A stretch of 34,654 nucleotides of DNA, from the NCBI GenBank assembly GCA_018399975.1, contig JAGYNU010000004.1:1-34654 (forward strand), written 5' to 3'. Both the position numbers and the translations under genes were made by a program. This stretch comes from Candidatus Omnitrophota bacterium. Its GTDB lineage: Bacteria > Omnitrophota > Gorgyraeia > M55B152. Shown one piece after another: positions 2,136 to 25,075 of the stretch (positions within the stretch are counted from its first letter, which is position 1; each line of letters begins with the position of its first letter). Below the pieces are notes generated by a model. The model searched no databases. It had not been told where the DNA came from and saw nothing but the letters and a program-made list of their open reading frames with translations.

Positions 2136-5100
2136 GTGTTGTTTAAGAAATTGGTTTTATTGCAATTCTTTAAAAACAAGTCTTATCAGAATCTAAATTT
2201 AACATTTCTATTTATCCAATCATTTATTATTATTCTTCTATTATTTCATGTGGCAGTTGCAAATAGTGCCATTGAAAAATCTCATTTTAGTATTTTAGAC
2301 GCAAATAAAAAAGGAACATTTAATATTGGTTTAGCAGTGGGGTCGGTTTTTACTATTTTTGATAAAGATATTAATAAACAGGTTTTAAAATTTGATTATT
2401 CTACATTTCCTAAAACTATGGTTGGGGTATGGACGAAAAAATATCCATCTAATTTAAATAGATATGAGGTGGATGCTATCAAGGTAGGAGTAAAGGTTCC
2501 ATATCGTAAACAATTAAGAGAAATTTCTGTAGAGCTGGAAATTAAAGGCGAAAAAAAATGTCAAACAGTACCGATTTCTCTTCAAGCTGGTTGGAATTTT
2601 TCTCATGAATCTATTAAATGGAATAAGATAGGGAAATTAAAGGAAATCGTTTTTGTAGTAAGTACAATTTCCAGCAAGGCAGTAACTAGTCCAATTGGTG
2701 GTGGGGAAATTCTTGAAACAGGTAATATTGGAAGTGTTTTTGATTCTGATAGTGGAGTAAATATAATTAGTTCGACGCATGGAGGGGAGTTGAAAGGAAC
2801 TTTATATTTTTCTCTTGACTTTTATAAAATGACCTTTTTGCAGAAATATTTTATTTTTTTAAAAATAAGTTTGATTTTTATAATGAGTTTTTTGGCAGGT
2901 TTAATTATAAATTTTTCAAGAAAATTATTTAAATTATATAAACCTCGCAGACAGTTAAAGCATAAGAAAGAAAATCATAAATTTCCCAAACTTTTTAGTT
3001 TAACAAGACTAAAAAGAGATTTTTTATACGGAGTAATATCTGTTTTGATTATTGGTATTGCTTTTGTTATATATTCTGTAGGGACTGTTAGTCATCTTGA
3101 CAAAGGATTTAGTTGTGGTTTTCTAATTATAGGTTTAATGGGAGCAGTAATTGCCGAATTATTAAAATATGTTATTACTAATAAACATCTTACTTCTTTT
3201 GAAGTTTTTCAGAATGTTTTGTTAACAGGGTTGTTGGTGGCTTCTTCGAGCAGGTTAGCAGTTTTTCAAGCACCTTCCAGTTGGACTCAAATATTAATGT
3301 TAAATAACATTATAGCAGCGCTTGCTTTTTTATTTTATCATATTCTAAATGCACGTTCATTAGCTTGTTATAAAAAACATTTAAATTTTGTTATAAGTGC
3401 TTCTATTATCGTTACGCCATATCTTTTTAATTGGTTAATGTTATTAGAAGATATAGCTATTATAAAAGTTGTTATCAATCAGATAAGTGGGGGATTACTT
3501 TTATCTTGGCCTATAATAGTTAAGGTTATAAGCCGATTGTTTATTGCTTTTATTTTTAATGCGATTGTCATGAATGGTTTTAGTTTAGTGATTAGAGGTG
3601 AAATACTTAAGAGTTTTAAAATTCATCTTTTTATTTTCTTTGTTTCTTTAGGAGTTGTTATAGCTCCAGTAATTGCCGATTTAGGTTCTGCCGAAACTAT
3701 TGGTTCTTTGCCTGCTTTGATTAGAGGCATTATTGCCATTTTAACTACAATGTTATCATTTGCAGGTTTATGGGGGGAAGTATATCTTATAACAGGAATG
3801 GCTTTAGATGGAGGTAAACATACTGCACCATCTTGGGAAACTGTGTCTGACCATGTAAAAACGGGAATGAGAAAAGGAATGGTATATAGTGGTATATTAT
3901 TGGGACTTTTGTATATATTGAATATATTATTAAAACCGGAAATATTACAAACTATTGCATCTAATTTACCAATTTTATTTGGTATATTAGCAGGAGCTTT
4001 AGTTTTTCCGTTACTTAAAACTATTATTGAAACTTTTGATGGTAGTATACCTTTTTCTCAAAGAACAAGATATAACTATCGTGATGCGGTTTTGTACGCT
4101 AGAGGTGCGGTTGCCGGTTTTGGTTTTTCTTATGCTCTTGTTCATAAAATTATCCAAGAAAATATGTCTGACCGCATTTTGTTTGGTTTAATTGTGGGTT
4201 TATTTGCATCTACTGGGGTAAGTATATTAAGAGATATAGTTTACTCTTACATGGGTAAAGGAAAAATTCAGTCATGGCGGTTGTATTTTATTGATGGATT
4301 GTTAGGTGCTTTTGTTGGAAGTGGGCTTGCTTTTTATATAGATAAGTTACAAGTTCCAGTAGTAATTGAAAAGTTTAAACTTTATACGAGTGCAGGTTTT
4401 GCTCCTCAGAATTATATTACTTATCCATTAGTTAATAAATGGGGCCGTATAGATTTAGGCAGTTATACTGGAGGACCTAAACTTCTTTTTACTGAATCTT
4501 TAGCAGGTGTTATTAATTGGGCGATTGCTGCATGGCTATTTGCTATAAATAAAGTATTTATGCAGGCTTTTTTTGAAAAACATATAGCTCCTATAAAGTT
4601 TTTCTTTTCGAAAGAAGGATTCTCATTGTTAATTGAGCATATGATTTACGTTCTTAGATGGGGCTTATGGATGTCGCCTATTATATTTACATTTTTACGA
4701 ATGATGCCTGATCCAACTTGGTACAATCAAGATGGAGCTATTCGTACATTATTTGCTGTTTTTCATAGACTTACGATGTCTCCAGAAGCTTTCAGGCAGT
4801 GGAGTTTAAATATTTTTGTTGGGATTATGGCATATAATTTTTTTAGAGTTTTTATTTGGATGGATCATATGGGATTACGTGTTGCTACCATGGTTAATTT
4901 AAGTTTTCTTGGGTTGGATAGATTAGACGAAAAAATTGCGCGATTTATTGGCCCTGCAGCTGCACAGAGATATATTCCCGAAGCTGTTAAAAGATTTGCT
5001 ACGTGGGCTCCATTACTTATTCCTTTTTATTTACCTCGCGGAGAAGAATGGAATTATGTGTGGAATACTTCCGAATCTATACAAAAAGCAAATGCAGGGA

Positions 5101-8100
5101 TTGGTTTAGTTTCTTTATTCCAATCTTTAACATTATCAGGGAAGGTTATTATAGTGATTTTAGCTGTATTAGTTTGTATGGCAATTTCTTTTGGAATTCG
5201 TTTATTAAGGGAAAGATATAGGCGCCGACATATAAAAAGTTATAGTTTAAGTAATAGAAGATATGAAGTTGTTGTTAAAGAAAATGGAAGCATATATAGT
5301 GAAGTTTTGCATAAGAAAAGGCATGAATTTCCAAAAGAATATGATATCAGCAGACGTTCATATGATATTATAGATCCTTGTGGGAGAATACTTTATTTAG
5401 TAGATATAGATAAAAAACAAGATAGCAAAGAAAAATTTTGGCCAGTTCTTGGAAATTATCCAGCAGATAAATTTAAGCTTTCTGATATTTGGAAAGAAGA
5501 AAGTTCTATCAAAATTGTTAATACGAATAATAAGATTAAGACAGACATAAGTATTAGTTTACCGACAGAGAATAGTACAGTGGAGATTTGGAATATTTCT
5601 GTCAAAAATTTAGCAACTCAACAACGAAATATAAAAATTGTTCCATATTTAGAATGGTTATTAAATGGATGGATTCATGACAGGTTTCACACACAGTATG
5701 CCAGGTTGTTCCCTGCCATGGAATATATAACAGAGGCAAATGCTATTTTATCATGGCAGAGAAGTACGAAAGCTATGGGTTTTTTAGCAGTAGATATTCC
5801 TCCGGAAGGTTTTTTAACTTCACGTTTTGCTTTTATAGGCCGTGCTCAAAGTATTTGGAAACCAAGAGCTTTAGAGACATTGGATTTTGTGGATGCTCAA
5901 GATACTGAACGTCTTCCTACATTTGATCCTATAGGAAGTTTAATGATAGACGCTAAATTAAAACCAAAAGCTTCTAAAACTGTCCGTTTAATTATTGGTT
6001 ATGCTGGAAATACTAATTATGTTGGAAGTAAAAAGCGTGCATTAAAAATGATCAAAAAATATTTAGACTTGCAAGAGAATAAATTAAAAGTATCCTCTAA
6101 AAAAGAAAATCCAGTATTAATTACTCATGGAGATATTCCTCAGGGAACTGCGAAACCATATTATAAGTTTATTGATAATGGCAATAAAATGCTTGTTCAT
6201 ACTCCGTATACACCTCGTCCTTTTGACCATGCAATGTCAAATGCCTTAGGGCATTCTGTTATGGTAACTAATCGTGGGCTTCATACCTCTTGCAATGGTA
6301 ATTCGCAACAAAATCGTCTTACTCCTGATTGGGCTGATGTTGTTACTAAGGAAATACCATCAGAAGCGATTTATTTATATGACCCGGATGATGATGAGTG
6401 GTATTCTCCGACATATCATCCATTAAATAATCCTGAAGTTGACACTGAATCGGAGTTTGGAGTTGACGGAACAGCTCTTTTTAGAATGAATCATAGGAGT
6501 GTTTCAACAGAATTAACAGTATTTGTTCCACCTGATGATCCTTTAGGTGTGTATCTTTTACGCATAAAAAATAATGCAGATTTTTCCAGGAGAATTAGAA
6601 TAGCTCCTTATTTTCAAATGGTATTGGCTTTTCAGCCTGAGAATACAGGTTCTTTACAGAAAAAATATGATGAAAAGTTAAATGCATTATTTTTCTATAA
6701 TCCTCGCAACATGTTTCGTAAAGGTTGGGCTTTTGCCTCTGTATCTGAATCAGTTGATTTTGTTGAAACCAATAGAGGTAGATTCTTTGGATTAAATAGG
6801 GGAGTAGATCACCCTTTTATGGTGGAGAATGGGAAACCTGATATTAAACATATGTCGGACGATACGCAAATAGCTTCTTTTTTAACGTCTGTAACTATTC
6901 CTGCAGGAGAAGAAACTACTATTGCAGTAATCTTAGGGCAGACTCGTAAAAAGAAAGATGCTATTAGATTAGTCAATAAGTATCAAGATATGGAAATAGT
7001 AAAAAGTCAGCTTAAAAATACTCGAAAATGGTGGCTTAATTTAATGGAGACAGTAAAGTTAAAGACAAACAAATCTGAATTTGACTATCTTCAAAACTGG
7101 CTTAAATATCAAGCTATTGCAGAGCGTGTTTTTGCAAGAAGGGGGTTTTATCAGACCAGTGGTGCATATGGTTTTAGAGATCAATTACAGGATACTGTAA
7201 ATATAATGGCAGTTGATCCAGCACTTGCTCGCAAACAAATTCTCTTACATACAGCTCATCAGTTTATCGAAGGAGACGTATGTCATTGGTTTTTTACTTT
7301 AACTGACGGACGTAGTGCTTTTTCATTTCGTTCTCATGCTTCTGATAATCCAATATGGCTTGTTTGGGGAGTATCAGAATATATTAAAGCTACGTCTGAT
7401 TATGCTATTCTTGATGAAATGGTTTCCTATATGTGGTCTGAATTTCCTTTTGCAGACCTTCCAAAAAATAAGATAGGCTGGGGACATTTATATCATCGTT
7501 CAACACGTTCGGATACTGTTTATAAACATTGTTTAAAGTCTATAGAGCTTGTATTAGAAAAGCGTAAAGGCAAGCATGGTTTACCCTTAATTCGTACGGG
7601 GGATTGGAACGATGGATTAGATGAAATAGGGAGTGAAGGTAAAGGAGAAAGTGTATGGCTTGGTTTTTTTGCATATTATATTTTAAAAGACATGCTACAT
7701 GTAATAGAGAAAAAAGAGGGTAAAGAACGAAAAAAATATTATCAAAAAAAATTAGAACAACTTAAAACTGCTTTAGAAAATACGTGGAGAGAAGATAGAT
7801 ATTTGCGAGCATTTCATGATGATGGTACCGAGATAGGCATAAAAGATAGTGGGATATGGGAAATTGATGCTTTAACCGTAGCTTGGGCTATAATAGCGGA
7901 TATCAATTTCGAGAGAGGCGTTACTGCTTTTCACACTGCTCTTGACATTCTTGAAAAAAGGCACCTTGTATTACTTGGTTGGCCGGCTTTACGTGAGGAT
8001 ATAGAACCATATCTTGGTAGAAGTAGTAAATATCCAGAAGGCGTCCGTGAAAATGGAATGTATTGTCATGGTGCTCAGTGGTTAATTAAAGCAGCTAGGG

Positions 8101-8495
8101 TTTTAGTAGATAAATTCGAAAAAAAAGGTGAGTCTGATAAAGCAAATGAATATAGAAAAATTGCTTATAGGTTATGGCGTAAAATAACACCCGCTTCTCA
8201 TACTACACCTAAAGAAATTGAAATTTATGGTGGGCAACCAAACAAACAACCTGCCGATATTTTAACCAATTTCAAACCTGGAAGAATGATTTGGAACGGT
8301 TATACAGGTGCTGCGGGTTGGTTATTCCGTCAATCTTTTGAAGGTGTTCTTGGTACCGAACTTAAAAATAATGAACTTATATTACCTGATGACATAGATA
8401 AACCAAGAGGAAAGTTAAAAATCGAATATATTTCTCGAGACCTTACTGATAGTCCACTTAAATCCATTCCAGAGCAACAAGAACCATCTTCATAA
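2136..8495 (+). CDS. Large polytopic membrane protein with C-terminal GH94 / glycosyltransferase-36-type domain (NdvB C-terminal-like)
   Basis: 2119 aa; GTG start after GAAAGGAG; many hydrophobic helices in the N-terminal half; C-terminal half carries two supersandwich-like blocks and the GH94 pattern GAYGFRDQLQDT...ADNPIWLVWG-like segment...LIRTGDWNDGLDEIG. Confidence 0.85.
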   Translation: MLFKKLVLLQFFKNKSYQNLNLTFLFIQSFIIILLLFHVAVANSAIEKSHFSILDANKKGTFNIGLAVGSVFTIFDKDINKQVLKFDYSTFPKTMVGVWTKKYPSNLNRYEVDAIKVGVKVPYRKQLREISVELEIKGEKKCQTVPISLQAGWNFSHESIKWNKIGKLKEIVFVVSTISSKAVTSPIGGGEILETGNIGSVFDSDSGVNIISSTHGGELKGTLYFSLDFYKMTFLQKYFIFLKISLIFIMSFLAGLIINFSRKLFKLYKPRRQLKHKKENHKFPKLFSLTRLKRDFLYGVISVLIIGIAFVIYSVGTVSHLDKGFSCGFLIIGLMGAVIAELLKYVITNKHLTSFEVFQNVLLTGLLVASSSRLAVFQAPSSWTQILMLNNIIAALAFLFYHILNARSLACYKKHLNFVISASIIVTPYLFNWLMLLEDIAIIKVVINQISGGLLLSWPIIVKVISRLFIAFIFNAIVMNGFSLVIRGEILKSFKIHLFIFFVSLGVVIAPVIADLGSAETIGSLPALIRGIIAILTTMLSFAGLWGEVYLITGMALDGGKHTAPSWETVSDHVKTGMRKGMVYSGILLGLLYILNILLKPEILQTIASNLPILFGILAGALVFPLLKTIIETFDGSIPFSQRTRYNYRDAVLYARGAVAGFGFSYALVHKIIQENMSDRILFGLIVGLFASTGVSILRDIVYSYMGKGKIQSWRLYFIDGLLGAFVGSGLAFYIDKLQVPVVIEKFKLYTSAGFAPQNYITYPLVNKWGRIDLGSYTGGPKLLFTESLAGVINWAIAAWLFAINKVFMQAFFEKHIAPIKFFFSKEGFSLLIEHMIYVLRWGLWMSPIIFTFLRMMPDPTWYNQDGAIRTLFAVFHRLTMSPEAFRQWSLNIFVGIMAYNFFRVFIWMDHMGLRVATMVNLSFLGLDRLDEKIARFIGPAAAQRYIPEAVKRFATWAPLLIPFYLPRGEEWNYVWNTSESIQKANAGIGLVSLFQSLTLSGKVIIVILAVLVCMAISFGIRLLRERYRRRHIKSYSLSNRRYEVVVKENGSIYSEVLHKKRHEFPKEYDISRRSYDIIDPCGRILYLVDIDKKQDSKEKFWPVLGNYPADKFKLSDIWKEESSIKIVNTNNKIKTDISISLPTENSTVEIWNISVKNLATQQRNIKIVPYLEWLLNGWIHDRFHTQYARLFPAMEYITEANAILSWQRSTKAMGFLAVDIPPEGFLTSRFAFIGRAQSIWKPRALETLDFVDAQDTERLPTFDPIGSLMIDAKLKPKASKTVRLIIGYAGNTNYVGSKKRALKMIKKYLDLQENKLKVSSKKENPVLITHGDIPQGTAKPYYKFIDNGNKMLVHTPYTPRPFDHAMSNALGHSVMVTNRGLHTSCNGNSQQNRLTPDWADVVTKEIPSEAIYLYDPDDDEWYSPTYHPLNNPEVDTESEFGVDGTALFRMNHRSVSTELTVFVPPDDPLGVYLLRIKNNADFSRRIRIAPYFQMVLAFQPENTGSLQKKYDEKLNALFFYNPRNMFRKGWAFASVSESVDFVETNRGRFFGLNRGVDHPFMVENGKPDIKHMSDDTQIASFLTSVTIPAGEETTIAVILGQTRKKKDAIRLVNKYQDMEIVKSQLKNTRKWWLNLMETVKLKTNKSEFDYLQNWLKYQAIAERVFARRGFYQTSGAYGFRDQLQDTVNIMAVDPALARKQILLHTAHQFIEGDVCHWFFTLTDGRSAFSFRSHASDNPIWLVWGVSEYIKATSDYAILDEMVSYMWSEFPFADLPKNKIGWGHLYHRSTRSDTVYKHCLKSIELVLEKRKGKHGLPLIRTGDWNDGLDEIGSEGKGESVWLGFFAYYILKDMLHVIEKKEGKERKKYYQKKLEQLKTALENTWREDRYLRAFHDDGTEIGIKDSGIWEIDALTVAWAIIADINFERGVTAFHTALDILEKRHLVLLGWPALREDIEPYLGRSSKYPEGVRENGMYCHGAQWLIKAARVLVDKFEKKGESDKANEYRKIAYRLWRKITPASHTTPKEIEIYGGQPNKQPADILTNFKPGRMIWNGYTGAAGWLFRQSFEGVLGTELKNNELILPDDIDKPRGKLKIEYISRDLTDSPLKSIPEQQEPSS

Positions 8496-8584
8496 ATAAT
8501 ATACTATATACTCCAACCTAAACTATTTAAACTATTACTACATAAGTAAACTATTATACTACATAAGCTATACAAACTTGTCGT

Positions 8585-8623
8585 AACTGGACACTTTTAC
8601 GCCGGGCGTGAAAGTGTCCAGTT
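8585..8623 (+). repeat. 39-bp near-perfect palindrome, copy 1
   Basis: AACTGGACACTTTTACGCC-G-GGCGTGAAAGTGTCCAGTT; related copies at 12646 and 17712. Confidence 0.9.
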
Positions 8624-8867
8624 AGCGGGTTTTGCTTATTTTTATAGAGTAATTGTAGTTGTTAAACGGCCAATAGGAAGTTATTTGATAGTAGTATAAT
8701 ATAAACCAGGGTTCATGTAAGGTGTTTATTTTTAGTAATTTAACATTATTATACGATTTTAGTAAAAAGGTACCAGATACTTGACTTTTTCATTTTAATC
8801 TTGCATGCTTAATTTATAGTTTTCAAAAGCCATAAATGATTTAATTTAAATTAACTTAAAGGTAAAT

Positions 8868-10040
8868 ATGAAATATTTTAAGGTAGCTATAATAGTATGT
8901 TTGGTTATGATTTTTGAGTATTTTTTATCTTTGAATTTTGTTCAATCTCGTATGATTCGACAAGACTTTATATCTGTAGAAGATATATTAGTGAATGATG
9001 TTTTGGAATATAGGCATGCTAAAACAATCAAAGAAATACAAGGAATTTGCTCTGGGTATATTGAAGAAGAAAATTTATTATCTCAAGATAAATTGCAAGT
9101 AATATTAGATAAGTTAGTAGATAAAGGCCTAGTTATAAAAATAACATTATCCGATGGTTTAAATAGTCGGGGAGAAGATATTTATTTAAAGTTTAGAAGT
9201 AGAATTGTAAATGATGCGTTTATTAATAAAGTTCAGAAAATCCTTATAAACGATAAAGGCGATACTATAGGGAGATATGTTGTTCCTGAAATGACCCCTA
9301 AGGAATTCCATAGGCATTTAAATGAAATTAAAAATGAATTGATAGGTATTTATGTTAATAAATTTAAAGAAGAAGGTTTAGCTGAATTTTTGTCTGAAGC
9401 ATTTTATCAAGCTTTTAATATTATAGGAGATAGTTTAGCTGATATAAGAAAAGGCCTTATCTTTTCTATTAAAAAAGCTGATAAACTTATTGAATCTAAA
9501 AAAATTAATATCGATGAACTTCCTGTTTTTTGGAGTAATTTAGAGAATTATAAAAAAATACTTACGAAAAGAAATCGTAGAGAAGAAAGTAAAGAATTCA
9601 ACGCGTTATTTGATTTAATAATTTCTATCATAGGGATGAATATTGATGATGGAGCATTAAACCAAACAAATAAGTATTTAGATATATATTCTAAAGCAGA
9701 AGATGATTTCAATAAAGAAATATTAGGTGTTCTAATCTGTGGTTCATGGGCTAGGGGGAGGCCACTTGAAAGCACTGACGAAGATTTTGTTATAGTTTCT
9801 AATGTGTCTGGTCATGAAACTTTTGCGGGGGATTTTTTTAAACGTGTATTATATCAAATAGGTTTTAATGCAGTAGAGGTAGATACAGTGGATTTTTTAG
9901 CTATGGATAATATAAAGAAATGGGGTAAATATTTTTCACCTTATGCTGAGTTTATTGGATGGCAACCTTATATTATCATTACATTATCTCCTGAAAATTT
10001 AGCTTTGATTGAAAATGAAATAGATAAAATAGCTAAATAG
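8868..10040 (+). CDS. Hydrophobic-leader protein with winged-helix-like region and C-terminal polymerase-beta-fold nucleotidyltransferase domain
   Basis: N-terminal hydrophobic segment AIIVCLVMIFEYFLSL; C-terminal GVLICGSWARGRPLESTDEDFVIVS (GS...DxD) and later acidic VEVDTVDF. Confidence 0.7.
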   Translation: MKYFKVAIIVCLVMIFEYFLSLNFVQSRMIRQDFISVEDILVNDVLEYRHAKTIKEIQGICSGYIEEENLLSQDKLQVILDKLVDKGLVIKITLSDGLNSRGEDIYLKFRSRIVNDAFINKVQKILINDKGDTIGRYVVPEMTPKEFHRHLNEIKNELIGIYVNKFKEEGLAEFLSEAFYQAFNIIGDSLADIRKGLIFSIKKADKLIESKKINIDELPVFWSNLENYKKILTKRNRREESKEFNALFDLIISIIGMNIDDGALNQTNKYLDIYSKAEDDFNKEILGVLICGSWARGRPLESTDEDFVIVSNVSGHETFAGDFFKRVLYQIGFNAVEVDTVDFLAMDNIKKWGKYFSPYAEFIGWQPYIIITLSPENLALIENEIDKIAK

Positions 10041-10683
10041 TATAAATACCCCTTCTTTTTAAGTTTATATGTTTCAAAAGGCTATTTAATTATTTTTGAT
10101 TTTAAACCTACCTTTTTGTTACTCTAAAAAATATTATTTTATTAAAATCACCTATATTTTGTTTTAAAATCTAAAGTTATCCACATATTATCAATAATAC
10201 ACTCTAACTCTTTTATTTACAGTACTTTATATTAAAAGTGCATATATTATCAAGTTAACATAACATATATTATCGGACGTTGTATTTTGATAAAGGGTAG
10301 AGGTTTAAACTCGTGCATTGAATATTTAAATATTTATTCCAGGGAATTTTTTATAATATCGGTAGGAAATTCTAGTTTTAATCTAATCTATTTTAATTGT
10401 ATCCAGTAATTGTGTAATTCTATTCTGTAGAATAAATTGGCGTTACTTGATATCTTAACCCTTTACTTTCTTCATATATTCTTCCTTCTAAGTTTTCTTC
10501 AACCATTACATACAACTTAAAATTTGAATCTGAGCTATCATTATATTTTTTATTTTATATATTCGCACAGGTGAAAATTACTAATTTTTTAAAAAAAAGA
10601 TATAAACTTGAAAATTTTCTTAAAATCAGGCATATTTATAGATATAGTAACAATATATATTTTAACAATAGATTCAATAAATT

Positions 10684-11860
10684 ATGTTATTACAATACTT
10701 CAGATTAATTACAGTTTTATGTTTAATATTTAATATTTTATTTTCCCCTATTATTATCTTTCTGTGTCTGAATTGTTTCAGTTTTCAATTCCATGTTGAT
10801 TTTAATGAATTTTCCAATGCAAATTTTCGTACAGTTAGAAACTTAGGATTAAAAAATTTCTTTTCTGGAAATCAGGGAAAATTTTTCACTATGGATTCTT
10901 TAAAGCAAAAGACAGGAACATCGGATTTAAAGCAGGAATTAGATAGTTTAGTAGATGAAGGATTTGTTATAAAGATTACTTCAGAAGAATTAGAAATGTC
11001 GACAGATATGACATTTTACGGAGTTTTAAGAAAAAGATTAGTTCCTGAAGATTTAAGTAATGAAGTTTCTGCCCTTTTTAAAGATGGAAATGAGCAAAGA
11101 GGATCTTGGTTTATTGGATTATATGAGGTTTCTGAACTTAAAGAAGATTTAAAAGGACTTTTTCAATTCAAAAAGTCTGTATTTCATTCAAAATATTTTT
11201 GGTGAAGAAAATATTGCTTTATTTGAAGAAAAAATATTTCCTTCCTTTTTAGAAATTTACGGAGATAATTTAGAGCGTTTCACAGGTCATTTATCCAGAA
11301 TGTTTGAAAAGATGAAACTTTTAGAATATTCAAAATATGAGAATCTAGAAGATTATGCCGATGAATTAATTGTTCAAGAAATGGATTTTTTCATAGATAC
11401 GCAGCTATATAATAATAAGGAACGTAATGTATCAAAGTTAATAAAGGAAATAGCTATAACACTGTATAATAGTATCCCAGAATTTAAATCTAGATTTTCT
11501 AAAAACGGAGATACTTTTGTAGGATTTATGATTTTAGGCAGCTGGGCATATTTAAAACCATCGCCGGATGCCGATTTGGATTTGGTTATAATAACCGATG
11601 GTCCTATAACTACTAAATCTTCCAGCGTTATAAGAGATGAATTGAAATATTTAATGCCTAAAGATATAGATAAAATTCAATATTTAGATTGCCAATTTTT
11701 AGATATTTCTAATCCAATTAGTTTTAATATCTTTAATTTTCCGAATAGCGTGCTTTTAATAAGAAATTTTATATTACTTACAGATACCTCTAAGAGTTTT
11801 AGTCAAATATTAGATTTGATATCCCAATATTATCATAATGGTAGATTAAACAAAAGTTAG
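10684..11860 (+). pseudogene. Paralogue of the 8868-10040 nucleotidyltransferase protein, split by a frameshift (ORFs 10684-11205 and 11300-11860)
   Basis: ORF1 has a hydrophobic leader and the block DLKQELDSLVDEGFVIKITSEEL similar to LQVILDKLVDKGLVIKITLSDG; ORF2 has GFMILGSWAYLKPSPDADLDLVIIT. The ORF2 frame is open from about 11153, overlapping the end of ORF1 (11205). Confidence 0.7.
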
Positions 11861-12025
11861 TTTTTAATTATATTTTATTAATAGATTTTGTATGCCTGAA
11901 GATAATAGATTGGATATTTTTGTTATAGAATATGCTATCTATATATTAGACCAAAAATTAAATTGTTTTAATTGTTTTTCGAGGTATTTTACGAAAAGAA
12001 TTTTAATATGTAGAAGCTATTTTTT

Positions 12026-12550
12026 TTATTGGAAAGGTATTTTTATTAGTTTTATTTCATCTATCCATACTGTTCCTGTTCCATTAATAACTACATTTAG
12101 CTTTATATTTTTAGGTTTTTCATTTTTTCTTAAGAAAAATGAAGTTTGTTCTGTTGTCCAATTATTTGTTCCTGTTAATGGAGTTTGTAGGTCTCTTGAG
12201 AAAAATTCTCCTTTTCCGGGGAAATAACACCACATTTCCAAATAGGCTTGTCCTTTTAGATTTTCTGTTCGCATTTTTGCTTCGTAATTTAAACGAGCAT
12301 TTTCAACATTTATATCTTTGACTTCAAATAGTCTTATAGTAGTTGGGTTATCTACGGTTATTTTTAAAGAGCCTCTTCCGTCATTCGAGATTTTTTTATC
12401 AATTTTTACTACAGACTGTGTTATAACATTTTCTAAATTATTTAAAGGAAAACTCGCTAACTCAGCTTTTCTATTAGAAAATTTGGAACATCCTATTAGA
12501 AAAAGTAGTATTATAAAAATTATTAAAACGATATTTGTGTTTTTTTTCAT
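12026..12550 (-). CDS. Putative lipoprotein, possible beta-sandwich/carbohydrate-binding-like domain
   Basis: Signal peptide with lipobox-like LIGCS; downstream region resembles a beta-sandwich (GRGSLKITVDNP...AYLEMWCYFPG...VWIDEIKLIK). Confidence 0.75.
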   Translation of the reverse strand: MKKNTNIVLIIFIILLFLIGCSKFSNRKAELASFPLNNLENVITQSVVKIDKKISNDGRGSLKITVDNPTTIRLFEVKDINVENARLNYEAKMRTENLKGQAYLEMWCYFPGKGEFFSRDLQTPLTGTNNWTTEQTSFFLRKNEKPKNIKLNVVINGTGTVWIDEIKLIKIPFQ

Positions 12551-12645
12551 ATATTTTATTCTCTTTATTTTATAAGGCTTCTTTATATTTAATTATATTA
12601 TAATACTACTGTAAAGGATAATCGTCAAGGCTTTTAAAATGTTGT

Positions 12646-12684
12646 AAGTAAACACTTTCTCGCCCGGCGTAAAAGTGTTTACTT
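12646..12684 (-). repeat. 39-bp near-perfect palindrome, copy 2 (inverted relative to copy 1)
   Basis: Plus strand: AAGTAAACACTTTCTCGCC-C-GGCGTAAAAGTGTTTACTT; overlaps the stop codon of the sirtuin gene. Confidence 0.9.
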
Positions 12685-13462
12685 AAGTAATTTGATTATA
12701 TAGGTTCCATATTTCATCTAAAGTTTCAGCAGCCCCTGCAGGTATTTTTATATCGATTATGTCTGACACTTCAGTTGTTGAAGGGTTTATTTCGATTGTA
12801 GGTTTATTTGTTTGATTTGCTTTAAAAATAGGTTCCTGAATATAAGGAAAAGTGTTTGTTGTTCCGATTGAAAAGTAAATATCAAAACCTTTTGATACTT
12901 CTCTATTGAAAATTTGTATGTTTTTTTCCTTTAGCATTTCTCCAAAAAATACTACGTCTGGCCTAATGAAATTTTTACAATTTGGGCATATCGGTGGTAT
13001 TTTTTTGATATGACTGTAATCTTTTACTTCTTTTTCCCAGTTACATTTTGGACATATTAATTTATGCATATCACCATGTATTTGAATCACATTATTTGAG
13101 CCGGCTTTTTTATGGAAACCATCTATATTTTGAGTGAGAACCCATACTCGATTGAATTTTTTTTCCAATTTTGCGATTACTTCATGAGCACGATTAAATG
13201 TAGTATTTCTACAGCGTTTTTCAATTTGTAAAAGGTATTTCCAGGTTATTTCAGGTTTGGTTTGTAATGTTTGTCCAGCAAGTGCGATTTCTATAGGGAT
13301 TCCTTCATCAGTTTTTTTTTGATTATATAAGCCTCCTATACCATGATAAGTAGGTAATCCTGAATCTGCTGAAATACCAGCTCCAGTTACAAATAGAATA
13401 CTATTACAATTTTTAAGTAGATTTACAACTTTTCTTATTTGTTTTTTAATTTTTGGGTCCAT
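12683..13462 (-). CDS. SIR2-family NAD-dependent protein deacylase
   Basis: GAGISADSGLPTYHG, TQNIDGFHKKAG, QIHGDMHKLICPKC...CPNC zinc ribbon, FFGEML. Confidence 0.93.
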   Translation of the reverse strand: MDPKIKKQIRKVVNLLKNCNSILFVTGAGISADSGLPTYHGIGGLYNQKKTDEGIPIEIALAGQTLQTKPEITWKYLLQIEKRCRNTTFNRAHEVIAKLEKKFNRVWVLTQNIDGFHKKAGSNNVIQIHGDMHKLICPKCNWEKEVKDYSHIKKIPPICPNCKNFIRPDVVFFGEMLKEKNIQIFNREVSKGFDIYFSIGTTNTFPYIQEPIFKANQTNKPTIEINPSTTEVSDIIDIKIPAGAAETLDEIWNLYNQIT

Positions 13463-13477
13463 ATTGGTAAAGATTAA

Positions 13478-13984
13478 TCAGTGCCTTCTGGGTTTTAAAA
13501 GTTCTAGTATACCTATTCCAAGATAAGCCCATATTATATACCATAATCCCCTATTTATTTTTATTTGTAATACGAGTTTATTGAAATCTGTAGTTTTGAT
13601 TTTGTAAATTAAAATGCATGATATGGTTATTGCGATTAGTCCGAGTAGAAAGTTTAGCCATCGACTAGGAATAGTTCCCAAAGTTATAATTAGTATGATT
13701 AGAGCTAAAAGAGGAATGCTCCAGACTAAATAACTTTTTTTGTCGATATTTTTTATGCCCGGCTTTAAAAGATTAGCTATATTTATTATTAAATGTGCGT
13801 TTTTACTATTAGCAATTTTAGGAATATCAAATCCTTTAATATCAAATGAATTTTGTTTTTCCCCTGTTATTAAATTAGAAAATTTGGATGATTGAGCTTG
13901 TTCTATACTTATCCAGGGAAGAAAAAAAGATATTATAACTATTATAGATAAAATACTTATCAGGAATTTTAATATAGTGTCCAT
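13478..13984 (-). CDS. Membrane protein of unknown function
   Basis: 168 aa with several hydrophobic helices; stop lies just upstream of the sirtuin start, suggesting cotranscription. Confidence 0.6.
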   Translation of the reverse strand: MDTILKFLISILSIIVIISFFLPWISIEQAQSSKFSNLITGEKQNSFDIKGFDIPKIANSKNAHLIINIANLLKPGIKNIDKKSYLVWSIPLLALIILIITLGTIPSRWLNFLLGLIAITISCILIYKIKTTDFNKLVLQIKINRGLWYIIWAYLGIGILELLKPRRH

Positions 13985-14150
13985 AATTGACTCCTTTTTT
14001 AAAATTTATTTTTTACTATATAATACTATGGAAATGGAATGTGTCAAGTTTAAAGAATAGTTTTGTGGATAGTTGTTTGTTGTGTTAGAGAAATATTTGT
14101 GGTTATTAGAATTACATTAAATAAATTGCATATATAAATTTCCCAACTTT

Positions 14151-14390
14151 TTATTTATGCACTTTATTTTCTTCTCTTGTTTTTATTAATAGTAATTTAC
14201 AATTAAATTTCTCTTCGATTGATTTAACAAGCAAATCGTATGATTTTTCTGGCAAATCTGCTTCAAATTTAATTATATTGGAACTTAAAAAATTGAAATG
14301 TGTATCTAATTTCAAATCGTCTATGTTTACTTTTCGAGTTCCTTTTTTTAAGTCTCCTTTTTCTAATACTATGCAGGTCATATTTTGCAT
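14151..14390 (-). CDS. Small hypothetical protein
   Basis: 79-aa ORF with a charged, globular-looking composition and AAGGGGGAAA-type SD upstream. Confidence 0.5.
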   Translation of the reverse strand: MQNMTCIVLEKGDLKKGTRKVNIDDLKLDTHFNFLSSNIIKFEADLPEKSYDLLVKSIEEKFNCKLLLIKTREENKVHK

Positions 14391-14407
14391 ATCTTTCCCC
14401 CTTCAAT

Positions 14408-14450
14408 AAAAAAAAGACAGTTATCTAATTATAACAAACTGTCTTTTTTT
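14408..14450 (-). terminator. Rho-independent (potentially bidirectional) terminator
   Basis: AAAAAAAAGACAGTT ... AACTGTCTTTTTTT inverted repeat located 3' of the FAH-family gene. Confidence 0.8.
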
Positions 14451-14523
14451 ATTTTAACTATTTCCATATTTCCTCTAAATTTTATGATACTACTATAATA
14501 TAGTATGTCAAGTAAAAATATAT

Positions 14524-15291
14524 TTATATTTTTTTGACTTGGTTGGTCAATTTACCTATGTTTTCAATTTTTATTTCTATTATATCGTTACATTCCATTT
14601 TTCCTACTCCAGCAGGTGTTCCAGTAGAAATAATATCGCCTGGTAATAGAGTCATTATATTAGATATAAAAGATACAAGTGTTTGAATTGAAAAAATAAA
14701 ATTAGAAGTTGAAGAATTTTGTTTTAACTTTCCATTTAAATAAGACTGTATTTTTAAGTTAGATGTGTCTATTTCTGTTTCGATCCAAGGACCTAACGGA
14801 CAAAACGTATTGTATGATTTTGCTCTTGTCCATTGGATTTCTTTTTTTTGTATATTTCTTGCGGTTACATCATTAAGACAAGTATATCCTAATATATATT
14901 CACTAACTTTTTTTTCTGGTATATTTCTACCTCTTTTTTTTATTATTAAAGCTAATTCAGCTTCGTAATCTAATCTTCTTATTTTATTGGGATATATGAT
15001 GTCGTTTTGGTGTCCTATAAGGGAAGTTGCTGGTTTTAAAAATATAATAGGATTTTCAGGTATATCCATGTTTAATTCTTTTGCATGGTCTTTGTAATTT
15101 AAGCCAGTTAGTATTATTTTAGGGGAAGGTCCCGTTGGTGGTAATAAAGTTATCTTTTCAATCGGTATAATAGAGCTTTTAATTAAATTTATTTTATTGA
15201 AAGGATTTTGTTTTGATATTTTAATTACTTTTTTGTTTTTTAGCACACCCCATTGTTTTTTGTTTTTATATATGTATTTTAAGATTTTCAT
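14524..15291 (-). CDS. Fumarylacetoacetate hydrolase family protein
   Basis: KIILTGLNYKDHAKEL, DYEAELALIIKKRGRNIPE, YTCLNDVTARNIQ, LLPGDIISTGTPAGVG. Confidence 0.93.
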   Translation of the reverse strand: MKILKYIYKNKKQWGVLKNKKVIKISKQNPFNKINLIKSSIIPIEKITLLPPTGPSPKIILTGLNYKDHAKELNMDIPENPIIFLKPATSLIGHQNDIIYPNKIRRLDYEAELALIIKKRGRNIPEKKVSEYILGYTCLNDVTARNIQKKEIQWTRAKSYNTFCPLGPWIETEIDTSNLKIQSYLNGKLKQNSSTSNFIFSIQTLVSFISNIMTLLPGDIISTGTPAGVGKMECNDIIEIKIENIGKLTNQVKKI

Positions 15292-15302
15292 AATAGTACA
15301 AA

Positions 15303-16061
15303 CTATTTATTATTAATCAGATAATCTTTTACGTCTTCAGGTATAGATTTCATTAATTTTTCTTTTTCTTCTGTTGGTAATATTTCATACATTAAGCGTC
15401 CGATTTCTTTTAACACTTCTTTATTTTTTCTATATCCGGGAGTAATTTGCTTTAAATAGTTTTTGTCCTTTTCTTTATCTCCTGTTAATCCCGAATATAT
15501 TTTTTTCATATCGTCTAAATTATTACAGAAAGAATTTATTTTATATTGATGAAGTTTGAGTATTTTTTTTGAGAATGCATTAGGATTTTTATTAAATACA
15601 TTTTCTGTCTTTTTGGAAAAGAGCGCTTTTTTTTTATTTAAAGTTATTGAATTTTTATAGAATTTTAGTGCTTCTTTGATACAGGATTCAGATAATGCTA
15701 CATAGTAATCTATGTCTTTATCGTTTTTGGTAATGATTTGCTTTAAAATATTAAAATTAAATAAAGCTAAGTTTGTATATTCGACTATATCGATTATATT
15801 TGATGGTTTATCTGTTTTGTTAATTTTTATTTTTTTAGATATGTTATAATCTTTATAGAAATTTGTAATATCGAAATAGAAAGTTTTTTCATGTCCACAC
15901 TGACTGCATTTTGTATCAATTACATCAACTGGTTTTTCATCTTTAGTTACTAAACGTTGTATCTCCCAATTTAGTGGGCCTTTCCCGCATTTTTCACAGT
16001 TGCGTAAAAATATATATAATTTTTCTTCTAAAACTGAGTTAGACTTTAATAAATTTTTCAT
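15303..16061 (-). CDS. Hypothetical protein with N-terminal zinc-ribbon-like Cys pairs
   Basis: CEKCGKGPLNWEIQ...CSQCGHEKTFYFD; 252 aa; next to the FAH gene. Confidence 0.6.
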   Translation of the reverse strand: MKNLLKSNSVLEEKLYIFLRNCEKCGKGPLNWEIQRLVTKDEKPVDVIDTKCSQCGHEKTFYFDITNFYKDYNISKKIKINKTDKPSNIIDIVEYTNLALFNFNILKQIITKNDKDIDYYVALSESCIKEALKFYKNSITLNKKKALFSKKTENVFNKNPNAFSKKILKLHQYKINSFCNNLDDMKKIYSGLTGDKEKDKNYLKQITPGYRKNKEVLKEIGRLMYEILPTEEKEKLMKSIPEDVKDYLINNK

Positions 16062-16136
16062 AAGTTATATTAAATATGTTAATATAAAATCCGGTATAAA
16101 TCAAATCTTAGTTTTGAAAAAAAGGTATAAAATTTT

Positions 16137-16655
16137 TTAAGGTTTTTCGTAATAATATATATAATAATAAGGGGTTAGTAAGGCTTGGTTTAATTCTTTA
16201 TGTATTTGCATTCCACATTTTTCTAAGGCTGCTATTACACATCTTGTGATGACTTTTAATCTGTTCCAGCAGCTGGGGTCTTCGGATTCCCCTTCTAATT
16301 CTAAATCTCCCGTGATGCTACTGATGGATATTGTATTTGTTGTTTTACGTATAATAATACTAACTTTATATTCGTATCCGTGACCGGCTGGAACTTGCAT
16401 ATCGTTTATTTCAAAAGGTAAGCTTAAATTGTTTATATCAGCTTTTTTAAATTTTTCTTTTAAATCTTGCACCAGTTTTTCTCCTCTTTTTGATGACATT
16501 ATTTCTTCAACCATTTCGTTGGGAGTATCTTCCTCTTTGGATTTTATAAATTGTTCTATTATATTTGGTTTTCTAACAGTACGGCTAAAACAATTACAAT
16601 TAAAAAAAAGAATAAATAAAACGGCTAATAGTATAATAATTTTAATATTTTTCAT
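16137..16655 (-). CDS. Secreted hypothetical protein
   Basis: N-terminal signal-like MKNIKIIILLAVLFILFFNCNC; 172 aa. Confidence 0.55.
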   Translation of the reverse strand: MKNIKIIILLAVLFILFFNCNCFSRTVRKPNIIEQFIKSKEEDTPNEMVEEIMSSKRGEKLVQDLKEKFKKADINNLSLPFEINDMQVPAGHGYEYKVSIIIRKTTNTISISSITGDLELEGESEDPSCWNRLKVITRCVIAALEKCGMQIHKELNQALLTPYYYIYYYEKP

Positions 16656-16658
16656 ATT

Positions 16659-17228
16659 TTAAGTTGGTTTTTCTAATTCTTTTAAGTAAGCTGTTTTAAA
16701 TATTTCAAACATTTTTTGTTTTAGAGTTTCATTTATATCTATTTGATTAATTATTTTTTGGATTTGTTCTGTCGGTGTTGTGTGATTTCTAATGAAAATT
16801 GCTATTCTTTCTTTTTGAAATTCATCGTAAGCAGTTAAACGTGTATCTTCATAATCTATAATTTTGATTTCTATTTCTTTTCCATCATTCTTAACAAATG
16901 TATTTTCACTTAACCAATCACTATATAAAATGTTATTTTTTTCTAAGATAGCTAATTTTTCTCCTAATTTTTTAAAAAGCTGTCTATAATTTTTTTCTTC
17001 AGATATCCAATTTGTATAATGCATTAAGTCGCCTAGCTTTGTTCCGTGGGCATGTTCTGAAACTATGTATCCTAAAGGGATATATATGCTGCGGGGAGCA
17101 ATTCCTAATTTGCTTGCTTTTTCAAACCTTTCTCCTTCGATGTCTTCTTCTGCCCATTTTAGATATATTAAAACTGGTCCTTTATTTGTATTTACCTCAT
17201 ACATGTATGCTCTAACACGGTTGTCCAT
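16659..17228 (-). CDS. Small protein-kinase-like fold protein (APH/lipopolysaccharide-kinase-like)
   Basis: IYLKW (candidate ATP Lys), GERFEKASKLGIAP, ILYSDWLSENTFV (catalytic-loop-like DxxxxN), IKIIDYEDT (metal-binding Asp). Confidence 0.6.
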   Translation of the reverse strand: MDNRVRAYMYEVNTNKGPVLIYLKWAEEDIEGERFEKASKLGIAPRSIYIPLGYIVSEHAHGTKLGDLMHYTNWISEEKNYRQLFKKLGEKLAILEKNNILYSDWLSENTFVKNDGKEIEIKIIDYEDTRLTAYDEFQKERIAIFIRNHTTPTEQIQKIINQIDINETLKQKMFEIFKTAYLKELEKPT

Positions 17229-17544
17229 ATCCGGGTTGAGGTATAGGATTTGAGATTCCTAATATATTATTAACTTCTGGTATTTTAAGAACAAATTCAC
17301 GTATTGCATTATTTATGAGATTTAATTCTTCTTTTTGATTAAATTTTTTAATATAACCGTTAAAGCTAATTTCTTGATTATATTCGATAAAATTTTTATT
17401 AGGATATTGACTTGGAGTTCTTATAATCCTATTGATATGCGATATATAAGAATTATTTTCGAAATTAACACATAAAAAGCCTGCATAAAATAATATTAAA
17501 GGAATTATTATGTAATATATGTTTTTTTTGCCTTTTATCTTCAT
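17212..17544 (-). CDS. Short hypothetical protein with N-terminal hydrophobic segment, overlapping the kinase-like gene
   Basis: 110-aa ORF; 3' end overlaps the kinase ORF start by 17 nt. Confidence 0.45.
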   Translation of the reverse strand: MKIKGKKNIYYIIIPLILFYAGFLCVNFENNSYISHINRIIRTPSQYPNKNFIEYNQEISFNGYIKKFNQKEELNLINNAIREFVLKIPEVNNILGISNPIPQPGYGQPC

Positions 17545-17711
17545 TATATTAGTTTATGGTTTTTTCCATTTGAAAACCTTTTATAAATGCATTCCTGAAC
17601 TAAATATACCTAATGAAAAGCAAAAAGTCAAATTTTTATACTTTTAAGTTGTTTATTTTAAAATAGTTATATGTTTTTTTATGGTAAGCTATAAGGTAGA
17701 TTTTTGTGCTT

Positions 17712-17750
17712 AACTGAACACTTTCTCGCCCGGCGTAAAAGTGTTCAGTT
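17712..17750 (-). repeat. 39-bp near-perfect palindrome, copy 3 (same orientation as copy 2)
   Basis: Plus strand: AACTGAACACTTTCTCGCC-C-GGCGTAAAAGTGTTCAGTT; overlaps the stop codon of the M50 gene. Confidence 0.9.
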
Positions 17751-18360
17751 AATAGAGATTTATGCCCATTAATCTGGCAAGCCCAATTACGATAGGAATT
17801 ACTATTTTGTGGATAATATTAAACATAAGTAATACTATAAGTATGATAAAGCCGAATCTTTCTATTTTACTGTATTCGTATGCTAAATCAGGAGGAAGTA
17901 AACCCATCACTACCCTTGAACCGTCTAATGGAGGTATGGGGATTAAATTAAATACTGCAAATAATAGATTTATAAAGATTCCATTTATTAATATTTGATA
18001 AAAAAAACTATTAAGGGGAAATATTTTTACAATAATGCTTAAAATAAAAGCAAATATAATATTAGCTAATGGGCCTGCTAAACCCACCCAGATAATATCT
18101 TTTTTAGGGTCTCTTAAAGCATTATAGTTTATTGGAACTGGTTTAGCCCATCCAAACGTAAATCGCCCTCCGGACATTATAAGCAAAAATATAGGAAATA
18201 ATACTGTTCCGATAGGATCTATGTGAGCTAATGGATTTAAAGTTAACCTGCCGGAATAAAGAGCTGTATTGTCTCCTTTTTTATATGCTACCCATCCGTG
18301 TGCATATTCGTGTATGGTTAAGGCAAAAAAGAATATTATTAATGTTAAAATAAAACTCAT
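17749..18360 (-). CDS. M50-family site-2-protease-like metalloprotease
   Basis: HEYAHGW (HExxH), several TM helices, NLIPIPPLDGSRV. Confidence 0.92.
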   Translation of the reverse strand: MSFILTLIIFFFALTIHEYAHGWVAYKKGDNTALYSGRLTLNPLAHIDPIGTVLFPIFLLIMSGGRFTFGWAKPVPINYNALRDPKKDIIWVGLAGPLANIIFAFILSIIVKIFPLNSFFYQILINGIFINLLFAVFNLIPIPPLDGSRVVMGLLPPDLAYEYSKIERFGFIILIVLLMFNIIHKIVIPIVIGLARLMGINLY

Positions 18361-22071: not shown

Positions 22072-23421
22072 TTACTTTTTATGATACGGGAATTTATCTA
22101 TTTTGGGATTATATAGACAGACTCTATTACGCCCCTCATGTTTTGCTCGATAAAGGGCCATGTCAGCATAATTTATTAAATCATCAAAAAAACTTGTATT
22201 TTCTGGATACAGACATGCTCCTAAACTAACTGTTATATTTATGGTTTCATCATAAATTTTAAAAGAATTACTTTCTATTTCTTCTCTTATTCTGTTTGCA
22301 ACAAGTTTAGTGCCTTCTAAATTTGTATCTGGTAATACTACTGCAAATTCTTCCCCACCAAATCTACCAACTAAATCGACTTCACGTACTGTATCAATAA
22401 TAATATCCGAAATTTTTTTTAATAAACGGTCGCCTACTAAATGTCCATACTTATCATTATGTTTTTTGAAATGATCTATGTCCAGCATCAGAAAACTTAA
22501 AGAGAGGCGGTGTTTAGCAGAACGCCTAAATTCTTCCCCAAATCTTTGCAGAAAGTGCCTTCTCGATAATACTCCTGTTAACTCATCTTTAATTGCAAGT
22601 TCATGTATTTTTTCGTAGAGGCTAACCTTTTTTAACTGTAGTGCAAATTGAACACTAAAAATTAAAATATTAAAATATTTTTCATATGGCAAATCTGTTA
22701 TTACTAAAATTCCCATTATTTTTCTTTCAGAAAAAAGAGGGATTGCAAGTAAGCTATTATTTTCTAATTCAAAATCTAAAGAAATGGATTTTGGTTCTCT
22801 TTTATTTTGGCTTATAAAAAAAGGTTCTTTTATCTGTTTTATTTTCTCGATTATTTTTTTGTCTTTTGTATTTATTTTAACTGTAGAAATTTTTGTTTTA
22901 AGAATGTTTCTATCTTCCTCTTTTTTTTCTAAGAAATATTCTACATCAGTAGATTGATGGTCTTTAAAAACTATAAATTTACAACTTTTAAAAGAAAAGT
23001 TTTCTTGTATTATATCATTAAATATTTTAAATACTTGTTCGAATTTTAGTCCTTTAGACATCTTTTTTGTTACTTCATATAAATTAGCCGTTTCTTTAAC
23101 TTTATTTGAAAGGGTTGTATTTACAGTTTTTAAGTCTTGTATGCGTTTTTCTAATTTATTCAAGGTTTCTTTTGTCAAATTTTTGTTTCTATCTATTTTA
23201 TTAAATTGGGCACGTTTAATTTTATTGAATTCATATGAAATTAATGGAATTGAATTCAATGCTGCTAAAGTAATAAGTAAGAAATATATGTCTTGGTTTA
23301 AAAATATTCCATATATCGAAACCAAAAAACTTATAATAATTGTTAATGTATATGATAATTTAATGTTAAATTTTAAAGCTATTGGCAAAATTAATATTGG
23401 GATAAAAATTATGAATAACAT
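22072..23421 (-). CDS. GAF-GGDEF diguanylate cyclase
   Basis: RHFLQRFGEEF...LMLDIDHFKKHNDKYGHLVGDRLL...REVDLVGRFGGEEFAVVLP; N-terminal hydrophobic helices; GAF-like middle. Confidence 0.93.
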   Translation of the reverse strand: MLFIIFIPILILPIALKFNIKLSYTLTIIISFLVSIYGIFLNQDIYFLLITLAALNSIPLISYEFNKIKRAQFNKIDRNKNLTKETLNKLEKRIQDLKTVNTTLSNKVKETANLYEVTKKMSKGLKFEQVFKIFNDIIQENFSFKSCKFIVFKDHQSTDVEYFLEKKEEDRNILKTKISTVKINTKDKKIIEKIKQIKEPFFISQNKREPKSISLDFELENNSLLAIPLFSERKIMGILVITDLPYEKYFNILIFSVQFALQLKKVSLYEKIHELAIKDELTGVLSRRHFLQRFGEEFRRSAKHRLSLSFLMLDIDHFKKHNDKYGHLVGDRLLKKISDIIIDTVREVDLVGRFGGEEFAVVLPDTNLEGTKLVANRIREEIESNSFKIYDETINITVSLGACLYPENTSFFDDLINYADMALYRAKHEGRNRVCLYNPKIDKFPYHKK

Positions 23422-24845
23422 ACTTTATTTCTTCCTGCTGTTTTTGCTTTGTATAAATTTATATCAGCTTGATTTATTAATTCATTTTTTAAATTTGTAT
23501 CATTTGGATAGTTTGCTACTCCAATTGATATAGTAATTCCTGTTTTCTTTCTTCTAAGAATAATTGAGTAATCTTGTATTCTTTTTCTAATGTTTTCAGC
23601 TTTTTTAATTGCCGATGGTTTGTATAAATCTGATAAAAGTATTATAAATTCTTCCCCCCCAAATCTGGCTACAACTCCATTAGGCCCAGTTTCTTCTATT
23701 AATATCTTAGCAACTTCTTTTAAAACAATATCTCCTGCAGTATGTCCATAAGTATCATTGTATTGTTTGAAATGGTCGATATCTATCAATAATACAGTTA
23801 TTTCTTTGTTATATCTTGATGCTATGCTAAATTGTTTATTTAAACTTTGATAAAAATATCTTCTTACAAATAATTCTGTTAAGTCATCTTTTATCGCTAA
23901 TTGTTCGGTGCGATTGTATAATAGTGCATTTTCAATAGCAGTTGCACTTAAGTCAGCTATTATGTCTAATAGTCTTAAATCATCCGAGGTGTAAACCCCT
24001 GCATTTTTGCTGTCCAACCTTAAAGTTCCTACTATTCGGTTTTCTGTAATTAGAGGGACCGAAATTATGGATTTAAAATCTCTTTTTACATTTTCTATAT
24101 CTTTAGCGCTAAATCTAAAATCTTTGTTTATATCATATATGTTTATAGGTTGTCTGTGGCGAAAAACCCATTGATCGAAAATATCACCTTGCTTTTCTTT
24201 TATATGGATTTTGCCTTTATCACTTTTGCTTGAAAGTAATGATAGTTCTAATTTAACCTCATCTATCCCATATAAAATACACATATTCGATTTTTCGATT
24301 AAATTAAGGGTTTTTTCAATTATATGTTCGGATAATTCGTTTATATCGAGTGTAGAACTTAATACTTCGATAAAATTTTTGAGCATGGAATATCGATATT
24401 TTTTCTTATTAAAAGCTTTCGACATTTCATTTTGTTTATTATACTGATTGAGTATTGTATTTTTCTGTTCCTCTAAATCTTCTAATTTTAATTTAGCTTT
24501 ATTTTTCTTTTCTATGTATTTATTATAAAAATAATTTAAAATTATTATATTAATTGTTAATATTAAAACATGGAGCAAGAAACAACTGGTTTTTAAACCT
24601 ATAGCTATTAAAAATATTAATATTAGACTAATTCCAAAGATAATCTCTGCATAAATTGGCCCAATGAGTAACCATAGCAACATAATAAGAGGATTTATGG
24701 TTAATAGTAAGGAGTGAATTCGTGCATATTTTATATTCAGATTTGCAAATTCTATATTAACTAGTTTTATACTTATAAAAGATATGACGAAAAAGAATAA
24801 AATGGATAGTAAAGAAATAAAACTTTTTCTAATAAATTTTTTCAT
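23409..24845 (-). CDS. GAF-GGDEF diguanylate cyclase (membrane-anchored)
   Basis: LLIDIDHFKQYNDTYGHTAGDIVL...ARFGGEEFIILL; start moved to ATG at 24845 (MKKFIRKSF) because the N-terminal extension to 24944 is translated palindromic repeat. Confidence 0.9.
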   Translation of the reverse strand: MKKFIRKSFISLLSILFFFVISFISIKLVNIEFANLNIKYARIHSLLLTINPLIMLLWLLIGPIYAEIIFGISLILIFLIAIGLKTSCFLLHVLILTINIIILNYFYNKYIEKKNKAKLKLEDLEEQKNTILNQYNKQNEMSKAFNKKKYRYSMLKNFIEVLSSTLDINELSEHIIEKTLNLIEKSNMCILYGIDEVKLELSLLSSKSDKGKIHIKEKQGDIFDQWVFRHRQPINIYDINKDFRFSAKDIENVKRDFKSIISVPLITENRIVGTLRLDSKNAGVYTSDDLRLLDIIADLSATAIENALLYNRTEQLAIKDDLTELFVRRYFYQSLNKQFSIASRYNKEITVLLIDIDHFKQYNDTYGHTAGDIVLKEVAKILIEETGPNGVVARFGGEEFIILLSDLYKPSAIKKAENIRKRIQDYSIILRRKKTGITISIGVANYPNDTNLKNELINQADINLYKAKTAGRNKVCYS

Positions 24846-24859
24846 AAAAATATGGAATC

Positions 24860-24914
24860 CCACGGGCTCGCCCCGTGAAATACAAAAGTATATTTCACGG
24901 GGCAAGCCCTGTGG
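24860..24914. repeat. Long hairpin element CCACGGGCTCGCCCCGTGAAATA...TATATTTCACGGGGCAAGCCCTGTGG
   Basis: Near-complementary arms of about 23-26 nt with a short loop; shares GCCCCGTGAAAT with 28170-28181. Confidence 0.85.
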
Positions 24915-25075
24915 TACCTTTATGTACCCGTCTTCGCCAAACACTTATTGTGTTTGGTTTCGCCGAGGTTATCCGCCAACACATTTAGATGGCTCCTTTA
25001 TTTGGTGACATCTCGCCGAAGCATAATTTTCGCATTCATCTACGGGTAAACCCGTGGTTTTCTGCGAAGGCGGAT

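Follow-up and report, generated by a model that had tools for sequence, protein, structure and literature searches.

A family of tagless palindromes with matched arms dispersed between the genes of a draft Omnitrophota genome

Results

The window analysed here is a stretch of 34,654 nucleotides from a Candidatus Omnitrophota bacterium (contig JAGYNU010000004.1 of assembly GCA_018399975.1, referred to as C44), and the subject of this study is a palindrome that occurs three times in it. The source genome is a draft metagenome-assembled genome of 1.18 Mb in 109 contigs, about 89% complete (11% missing). The first copy, C44a (8584..8624, plus strand), lies 89 nt past the end of a gene encoding a 2119 aa protein with a GH94 (Glyco_hydro_94) domain (2136..8495, plus strand). 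The second, C44b (12645..12685, minus strand), overlaps the TAA stop of a Sir2-family gene (12683..13462, minus strand), and the third, C44c (17710..17752, minus strand), overlaps the TAA stop of an M50-family peptidase gene (17749..18360, minus strand), the stop codon lying at the edge of the palindrome in both cases. All three were found with the positions and sequences given in the original prediction, and with the outer arms claimed there, i.e., AACTGGA/TCCAGTT in C44a, AAGTAAA/TTTACTT in C44b and AACTGAA/TTCAGTT in C44c; the core has T18 in the first and A18 in the other two. The palindromes extend 1-2 nt past the ends of the 39 nt first reported, with a full length of 41-43 nt, and the start of two of the three within the stop codon of the upstream gene had not been described. 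Inverted-repeat arms were 20-21 nt long and 90-95% complementary, with a 1-nt centre. The 25-nt core occurred three times in the window, together with one reverse-strand self-match, and was never obtained in dinucleotide shuffles.

The search for further copies gave a family of 13 extragenic palindromes over seven contigs: three each on C31 and C44, two each on C17 and C43, and single copies on C23, C30 and C59. The two copies on C43 stand head to head, separated by 13 nt, and different subtypes adjoin on a single contig. A search with a shortened core of 19 nt, in which 3 mismatches were allowed, gave no additional copy in the genome. All 26 exact matches to the 13-nt arm fell inside the 13 palindromes, one extra hit carrying a mismatch, and no solitary arm was found in the assembly by exact arm search; thus, the assembly holds no longer element or full insertion sequence with such ends. 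Outside the source genome, 383 other genomes of the class searched at 3 mismatches held no copy, except for one chance-like 3-mismatch hit with a different core. The exact 25-mer was absent from 84,980 species genomes and from IMG/VR, collections which may not include the records nearest to the source genome, and the 41-mer had no match in phage and plasmid collections, outside which records of near relatives may likewise fall. A similar centre in genome G024 (TTTTAAGCCGGGCTTAAAA) is single-copy there and was treated as coincidence. The same was concluded for a looser core pattern, found about 1-2 times per genome where present, since a reversed-pattern control also scored. As far as such sequence searches reach, the family appears restricted to the source lineage.

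The 13 copies share an apical 25-nt core, ACACTTTYACGCC G GGCGWRAAAGTGT, which is nearly invariant; in the alignment of all copies the core CACTTTTACGCCGGGCGTGAAAGTG has only three variable positions. A T.G mismatch in it is kept in 11 copies and made C.G in C43a and T.A in C59, while T18 is replaced by A in C17a, C44b and C44c. In sense orientation, an overlap of 2 nt with the stop codon of the upstream gene is found in exactly these A18 copies. They could represent a sub-lineage that prefers targets of its own, or the coincidence could be due to chance. The outer stem and the foot vary between copies and nearly always pair. Five paired versions of the outer 7-nt arm were recorded, AAGTAAA, AACTGAA, AACTGGA, AAGTATA and AAATGGA. 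The palindrome reaches up to 45 nt where GCTAAG...CTTAGC is retained (C30, C31c). In C59 the symmetry extends to 57 nt with 28-nt arms (L019:582-638), through sequence that the other copies do not share (TCTTGTT/AGCAAGA), as if symmetrisation had spread outward from the element.

The claim that changes in one arm are compensated in the other held genome-wide. Over 21 pairs in 13 copies, 95.2% of the cells were paired, and sliding the partner by 1-3 columns lowered pairing from 95% to 29-49%. Cells changed on both sides numbered 18, against 5.7 in shuffled alignments, and none of 500 shuffles, which take no account of the shared ancestry of the copies, reached 18. The covariation score was 0.201, compared with 0.078 after shuffling, and again no shuffle of 500 was as high. 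The number of double-changed pairs, five, is not exceptional alone (58/500 shuffles). Within the 39 nt, every paired change lay in the outer seven of 19 pairs (chance about 0.007).

Three features of this variation bear on how the arms are kept matched, a matter on which selection for pairing and a copying mechanism had both been proposed. Firstly, three copies are half-converted: C31a (A.C), C43b (G.T) and C43a (at the foot). Secondly, G-C/C-G and A-T/T-A swaps are present, and no copy shows an unpaired intermediate state; for selection alone, transversional swaps of this kind are difficult to reach. Thirdly, the core mismatch has been symmetrised in opposite directions in C43a and C59. Template switching is a known source of compensatory change (PMC8794818), and would explain the half-converted copies and the symmetrisation in both directions. 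Quasipalindrome correction, as this mutational process is described, shares with our palindromes the matched arms, the half-converted intermediates and the two-way symmetrisation (PMC8794818), but it leaves the dispersal of the copies unexplained. Copying is thus favoured over the alternative put forward with it, and selection on pairing may still contribute.

The outer bases bear on whether the palindrome is a miniature inverted-repeat transposable element, i.e., a remnant of a DDE (IS630/Tc1-like) transposon that consists of the two terminal inverted repeats alone, the TA at each end being the target duplication. A T before and an A after the 39-mer in 10 of the 13 copies do give TA...TA ends, but these cannot be told from one more step of the palindrome, and the outermost bases are the most variable ones, the opposite of what is seen at transposon ends. 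No longer direct repeats flank the copies consistently, and the absence of single arms leaves no full-length parent in the assembly. This origin was considered highly unlikely.

A functional element at RNA 3' ends is a more substantial alternative. The hairpin would block 3'-5' exonucleases or aid factor-assisted termination, pairing would be selected, and a protein or RNase would read the apex. Predicted RNA folds were strong on both strands (-20 to -32 kcal/mol, z about -6 to -8), and a core more conserved than the lower stem fits such recognition. Canonical terminator-like sites in the window were no commoner than chance (9 vs 7.3), a result counted in favour of this reading. Being a near-perfect palindrome, such an element would work in both orientations; however, the core mismatch is a G.U or an A.C pair depending on the orientation, and the two orientations are equally frequent. 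The T tract is absent after the hairpin, in accordance with the earlier statement that these are not classical terminators. Indeed, an intrinsic (Rho-independent) terminator was rejected as a description of the element, as the hairpin is present, but no stretch of 8 nt near the 3' foot contains more than 5 T, and four copies have only 1-2. Rfam covariance models gave no hit at gathering score in the window, the only matches at E <= 1 being sub-threshold eukaryotic miRNA hairpins.

With respect to genes, none of the 13 copies reaches into coding sequence by more than the 2-6 nt shared at a stop codon, an arrangement with a chance of about 6e-13 given a coding fraction of 0.885 on the seven copy-bearing contigs. 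At least four copies, C31a among them, overlap the last 2-6 nt of an open reading frame (ORF), the stop codon of which they supply or share. All gaps with both flanks known are between co-directional genes, and no divergent gap holds a copy. The upstream 3' end was nearer than the start of the next gene in 8 of 10 placeable copies (sign test 0.055), or in 9 of 10 (sign test 0.011) if a doubtful 72-aa ORF is omitted. These placements, including the copies starting at or inside stop codons, agree with what is expected of an RNA 3'-end element. It had been claimed that every copy lies 3' of a gene and in the same relative orientation; this is true of all three copies in the window, and the 3' bias largely holds in the genome, but the fixed orientation does not. 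Six copies have the same orientation as the upstream gene and seven the opposite one, so that the agreement of three in the window is a coincidence.

Truncation of genes by the palindrome was also considered and found unsupported. The M50 gene ends within 1-3 residues of the ends of its relatives, and homology of the Sir2 gene to solved Sir2 proteins extends to residue 251 of 259. Both C-termini look natural, and the elements therefore stand at natural gene ends. The flanking genes have unrelated functions, which tells against a protein-binding site (an operator, or a site for chromosome organisation) common to the 13 loci. The conserved symmetrical core and the dispersal of the sites would suit a binding protein, whereas the position mostly after genes rather than at promoters would not, and recognition of a duplex does not need a matched palindrome of 39-45 bp with covarying outer arms. 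We regard this explanation as highly improbable. Integron attC sites were rejected as well, as the orientation is mixed and the copies are mostly kilobases apart between ordinary genes.

The genome contains three Y1_Tnp genes, each resembling the NCBIfam model for the REP-associated tyrosine transposase (RAYT; REP, repetitive extragenic palindrome) below its cut-off. The transposase of RAYT type suggested in the original prediction is represented by these candidates, but the palindrome under study flanks none of the three in this genome of about 89% completeness. The Y1/RAYT-like gene on contig C2 (L023:3610-4392) has a different tagless palindrome, with core TGTTCGAAGCTWAGCTTCGAACA, on both sides; the upstream one, with extended arms of 20 nt around a 1-nt centre, is 41 nt long. 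This core has only two copies in the genome and is unrelated to the core under study. Just after the second Y1/RAYT-like gene, on C49 (L024:3738-3840), AAAAAGTTCAACCGCGTAGGTTGTG occurs twice in direct orientation. Y1_Tnp genes were present in 48 of 59 sampled genomes of the class, and long palindromes flanking the Y1 loci of these class-mates were rare. Known TnpA-REP enzymes depend to a varying degree on a GTAG tag and cleave at a CT beside the REP (PMC8266576). The flank alignment of the 13 copies held no GTAG or CGTC tag, and the foot showed only a weak CT/AG; five of the 13 copies have CT immediately before the 39-mer, an observation taken only as a lead.

Sampling of Omnitrophota genomes for long palindromes brought up a second family, of the form CCACCA...TGGTGG (13 copies; loci L261-L273, position 1501). 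It occurs mainly in another family of the Omnitrophota, f25, in genomes G054, G024, G114 and G078, with single copies in G104 and G113. In the pattern CCACCA-NN-TTTTT...AAAAA-NN-TGGTGG, the free stem dinucleotide pairs in 12 of the 13 copies and takes five sequences, and one copy is half-converted. Sequence is unrelated to that of the window family, and the conserved part is at the foot, not at the apex. This second case supports a general arm-matching process rather than a peculiarity of the window family. The CCACCA palindromes are overlapped by mostly short ORFs.

Two other features of the window were recorded. An inverted repeat with arms of 19 nt, GGGCTCGCCCCGTGAAATA / TATTTCACGGGGCAAGCCC, around an 8-nt loop (24864-24909), lies in the 5' part of a predicted GAF-GGDEF ORF (23409-24944, minus strand). 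The ORF is predicted with a GTG start, and its real start may be downstream of the repeat. The nearest relatives (57-65% identity) of a carboxyltransferase-domain protein at 26334-27185 are almost all from Candidatus Omnitrophota.

Discussion

On balance, we consider it probable that a short DNA repeat of REP-like character, non-autonomous and able to form a hairpin, spread in this lineage and that the palindromes are its copies. Dispersal is inferred from the copy number, the mixing of subtypes and the restriction to one lineage. According to this reading, a mutation in one arm would be copied to the other when a fork or repair polymerase switches template within the hairpin. The core would be recognised by a mobilising or binding protein, and copies with a damaged core would neither spread nor persist. 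The most plausible means of movement would be a transposase of the single-strand (HUH/Y1) type. The bias towards 3' ends may arise because insertions into coding sequence, promoters or ribosome sites are selected against, and it may be reinforced if a 3' hairpin is slightly beneficial to the mRNA.

REP families are located close to 3' ends, contribute stop codons and also occur as dimers in opposite orientation (PMC3733652). With the GTAG and CGTC super-families of REPs our palindrome shares the form of a dispersed extragenic palindrome within 20-45 nt near the 3' ends of upstream ORFs, the termini supplying stop codons, the opposite-orientation dimers and the restriction of families to a species, and with the CGTC REPs also the lack of a dedicated transposase (PMC3733652). 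It differs in having no unpaired GTAG or CGTC tag, in being a near-perfect palindrome with a 1-nt centre that is not placed beside a RAYT gene, and in its 13 copies in 1.18 Mb, compared with the usual high number (often >100). On account of the tag, the copy number and the RAYT linkage it does not belong to the REPs proper. We regard it as a variant within a known kind of repeat, namely a REP-like palindrome that is tagless, orphan and low in copy number. The terminal inverted repeats of TIRYT elements, tagless palindromes flanking Y1 transposase genes (PMC3733652), come close in other respects. Some of them are self-complementary and moderately abundant and occur in dimers, and the C2 Y1 gene has tagless flanking palindromes of this sort. 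However, the window palindrome flanks none of the three Y1 genes found, and the one at C2 differs from it in its unrelated core and is present in two copies only.

Several points weigh against a mobile repeat. Movement is deduced from 13 copies, there is neither a GTAG/CGTC tag nor a clear target-site duplication nor an empty site for comparison, and no genome of the same genus or family was among the relatives examined. No transposase gene is flanked by the palindrome, and its arms never stand single, as they would be expected to do at the ends of a longer element. As the shuffle counts ignore shared ancestry, they overstate the significance of the covariation where copies have a common descent. 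In addition, functional RNA hairpins show the same combination of a covarying lower stem and a conserved core, and a purely selected RNA hairpin is a serious rival. We nevertheless hold it to be doubtful as the main explanation: only 13 sites exist in the whole genome, beside functionally unrelated genes, no relative has the palindrome, and selection accounts less well for bidirectional symmetrisation. The best reading is that the arms are matched mainly by DNA template switching, possibly with secondary effects on RNA 3' ends. A wider and clearly speculative proposal, which we rate as rather unlikely, is that Omnitrophota carry several unrelated families of tagless palindromes, which would spread as single-strand hairpins via Y1-type or other hairpin-recognising enzymes, their arms being self-templating and thereby diversifying in matched pairs.

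Paired changes in the arms of a hairpin are often regarded as proving that selection acts on an RNA structure. In this family they probably arose by template switching in DNA, which is a caution for RNA discovery based on covariation. The palindromes would also widen the range of REP-like repeats to include an uncultured phylum, where they lack the tag on which known TnpA-REP enzymes depend to varying degrees, and this tagless form raises the question of what mobilises them.

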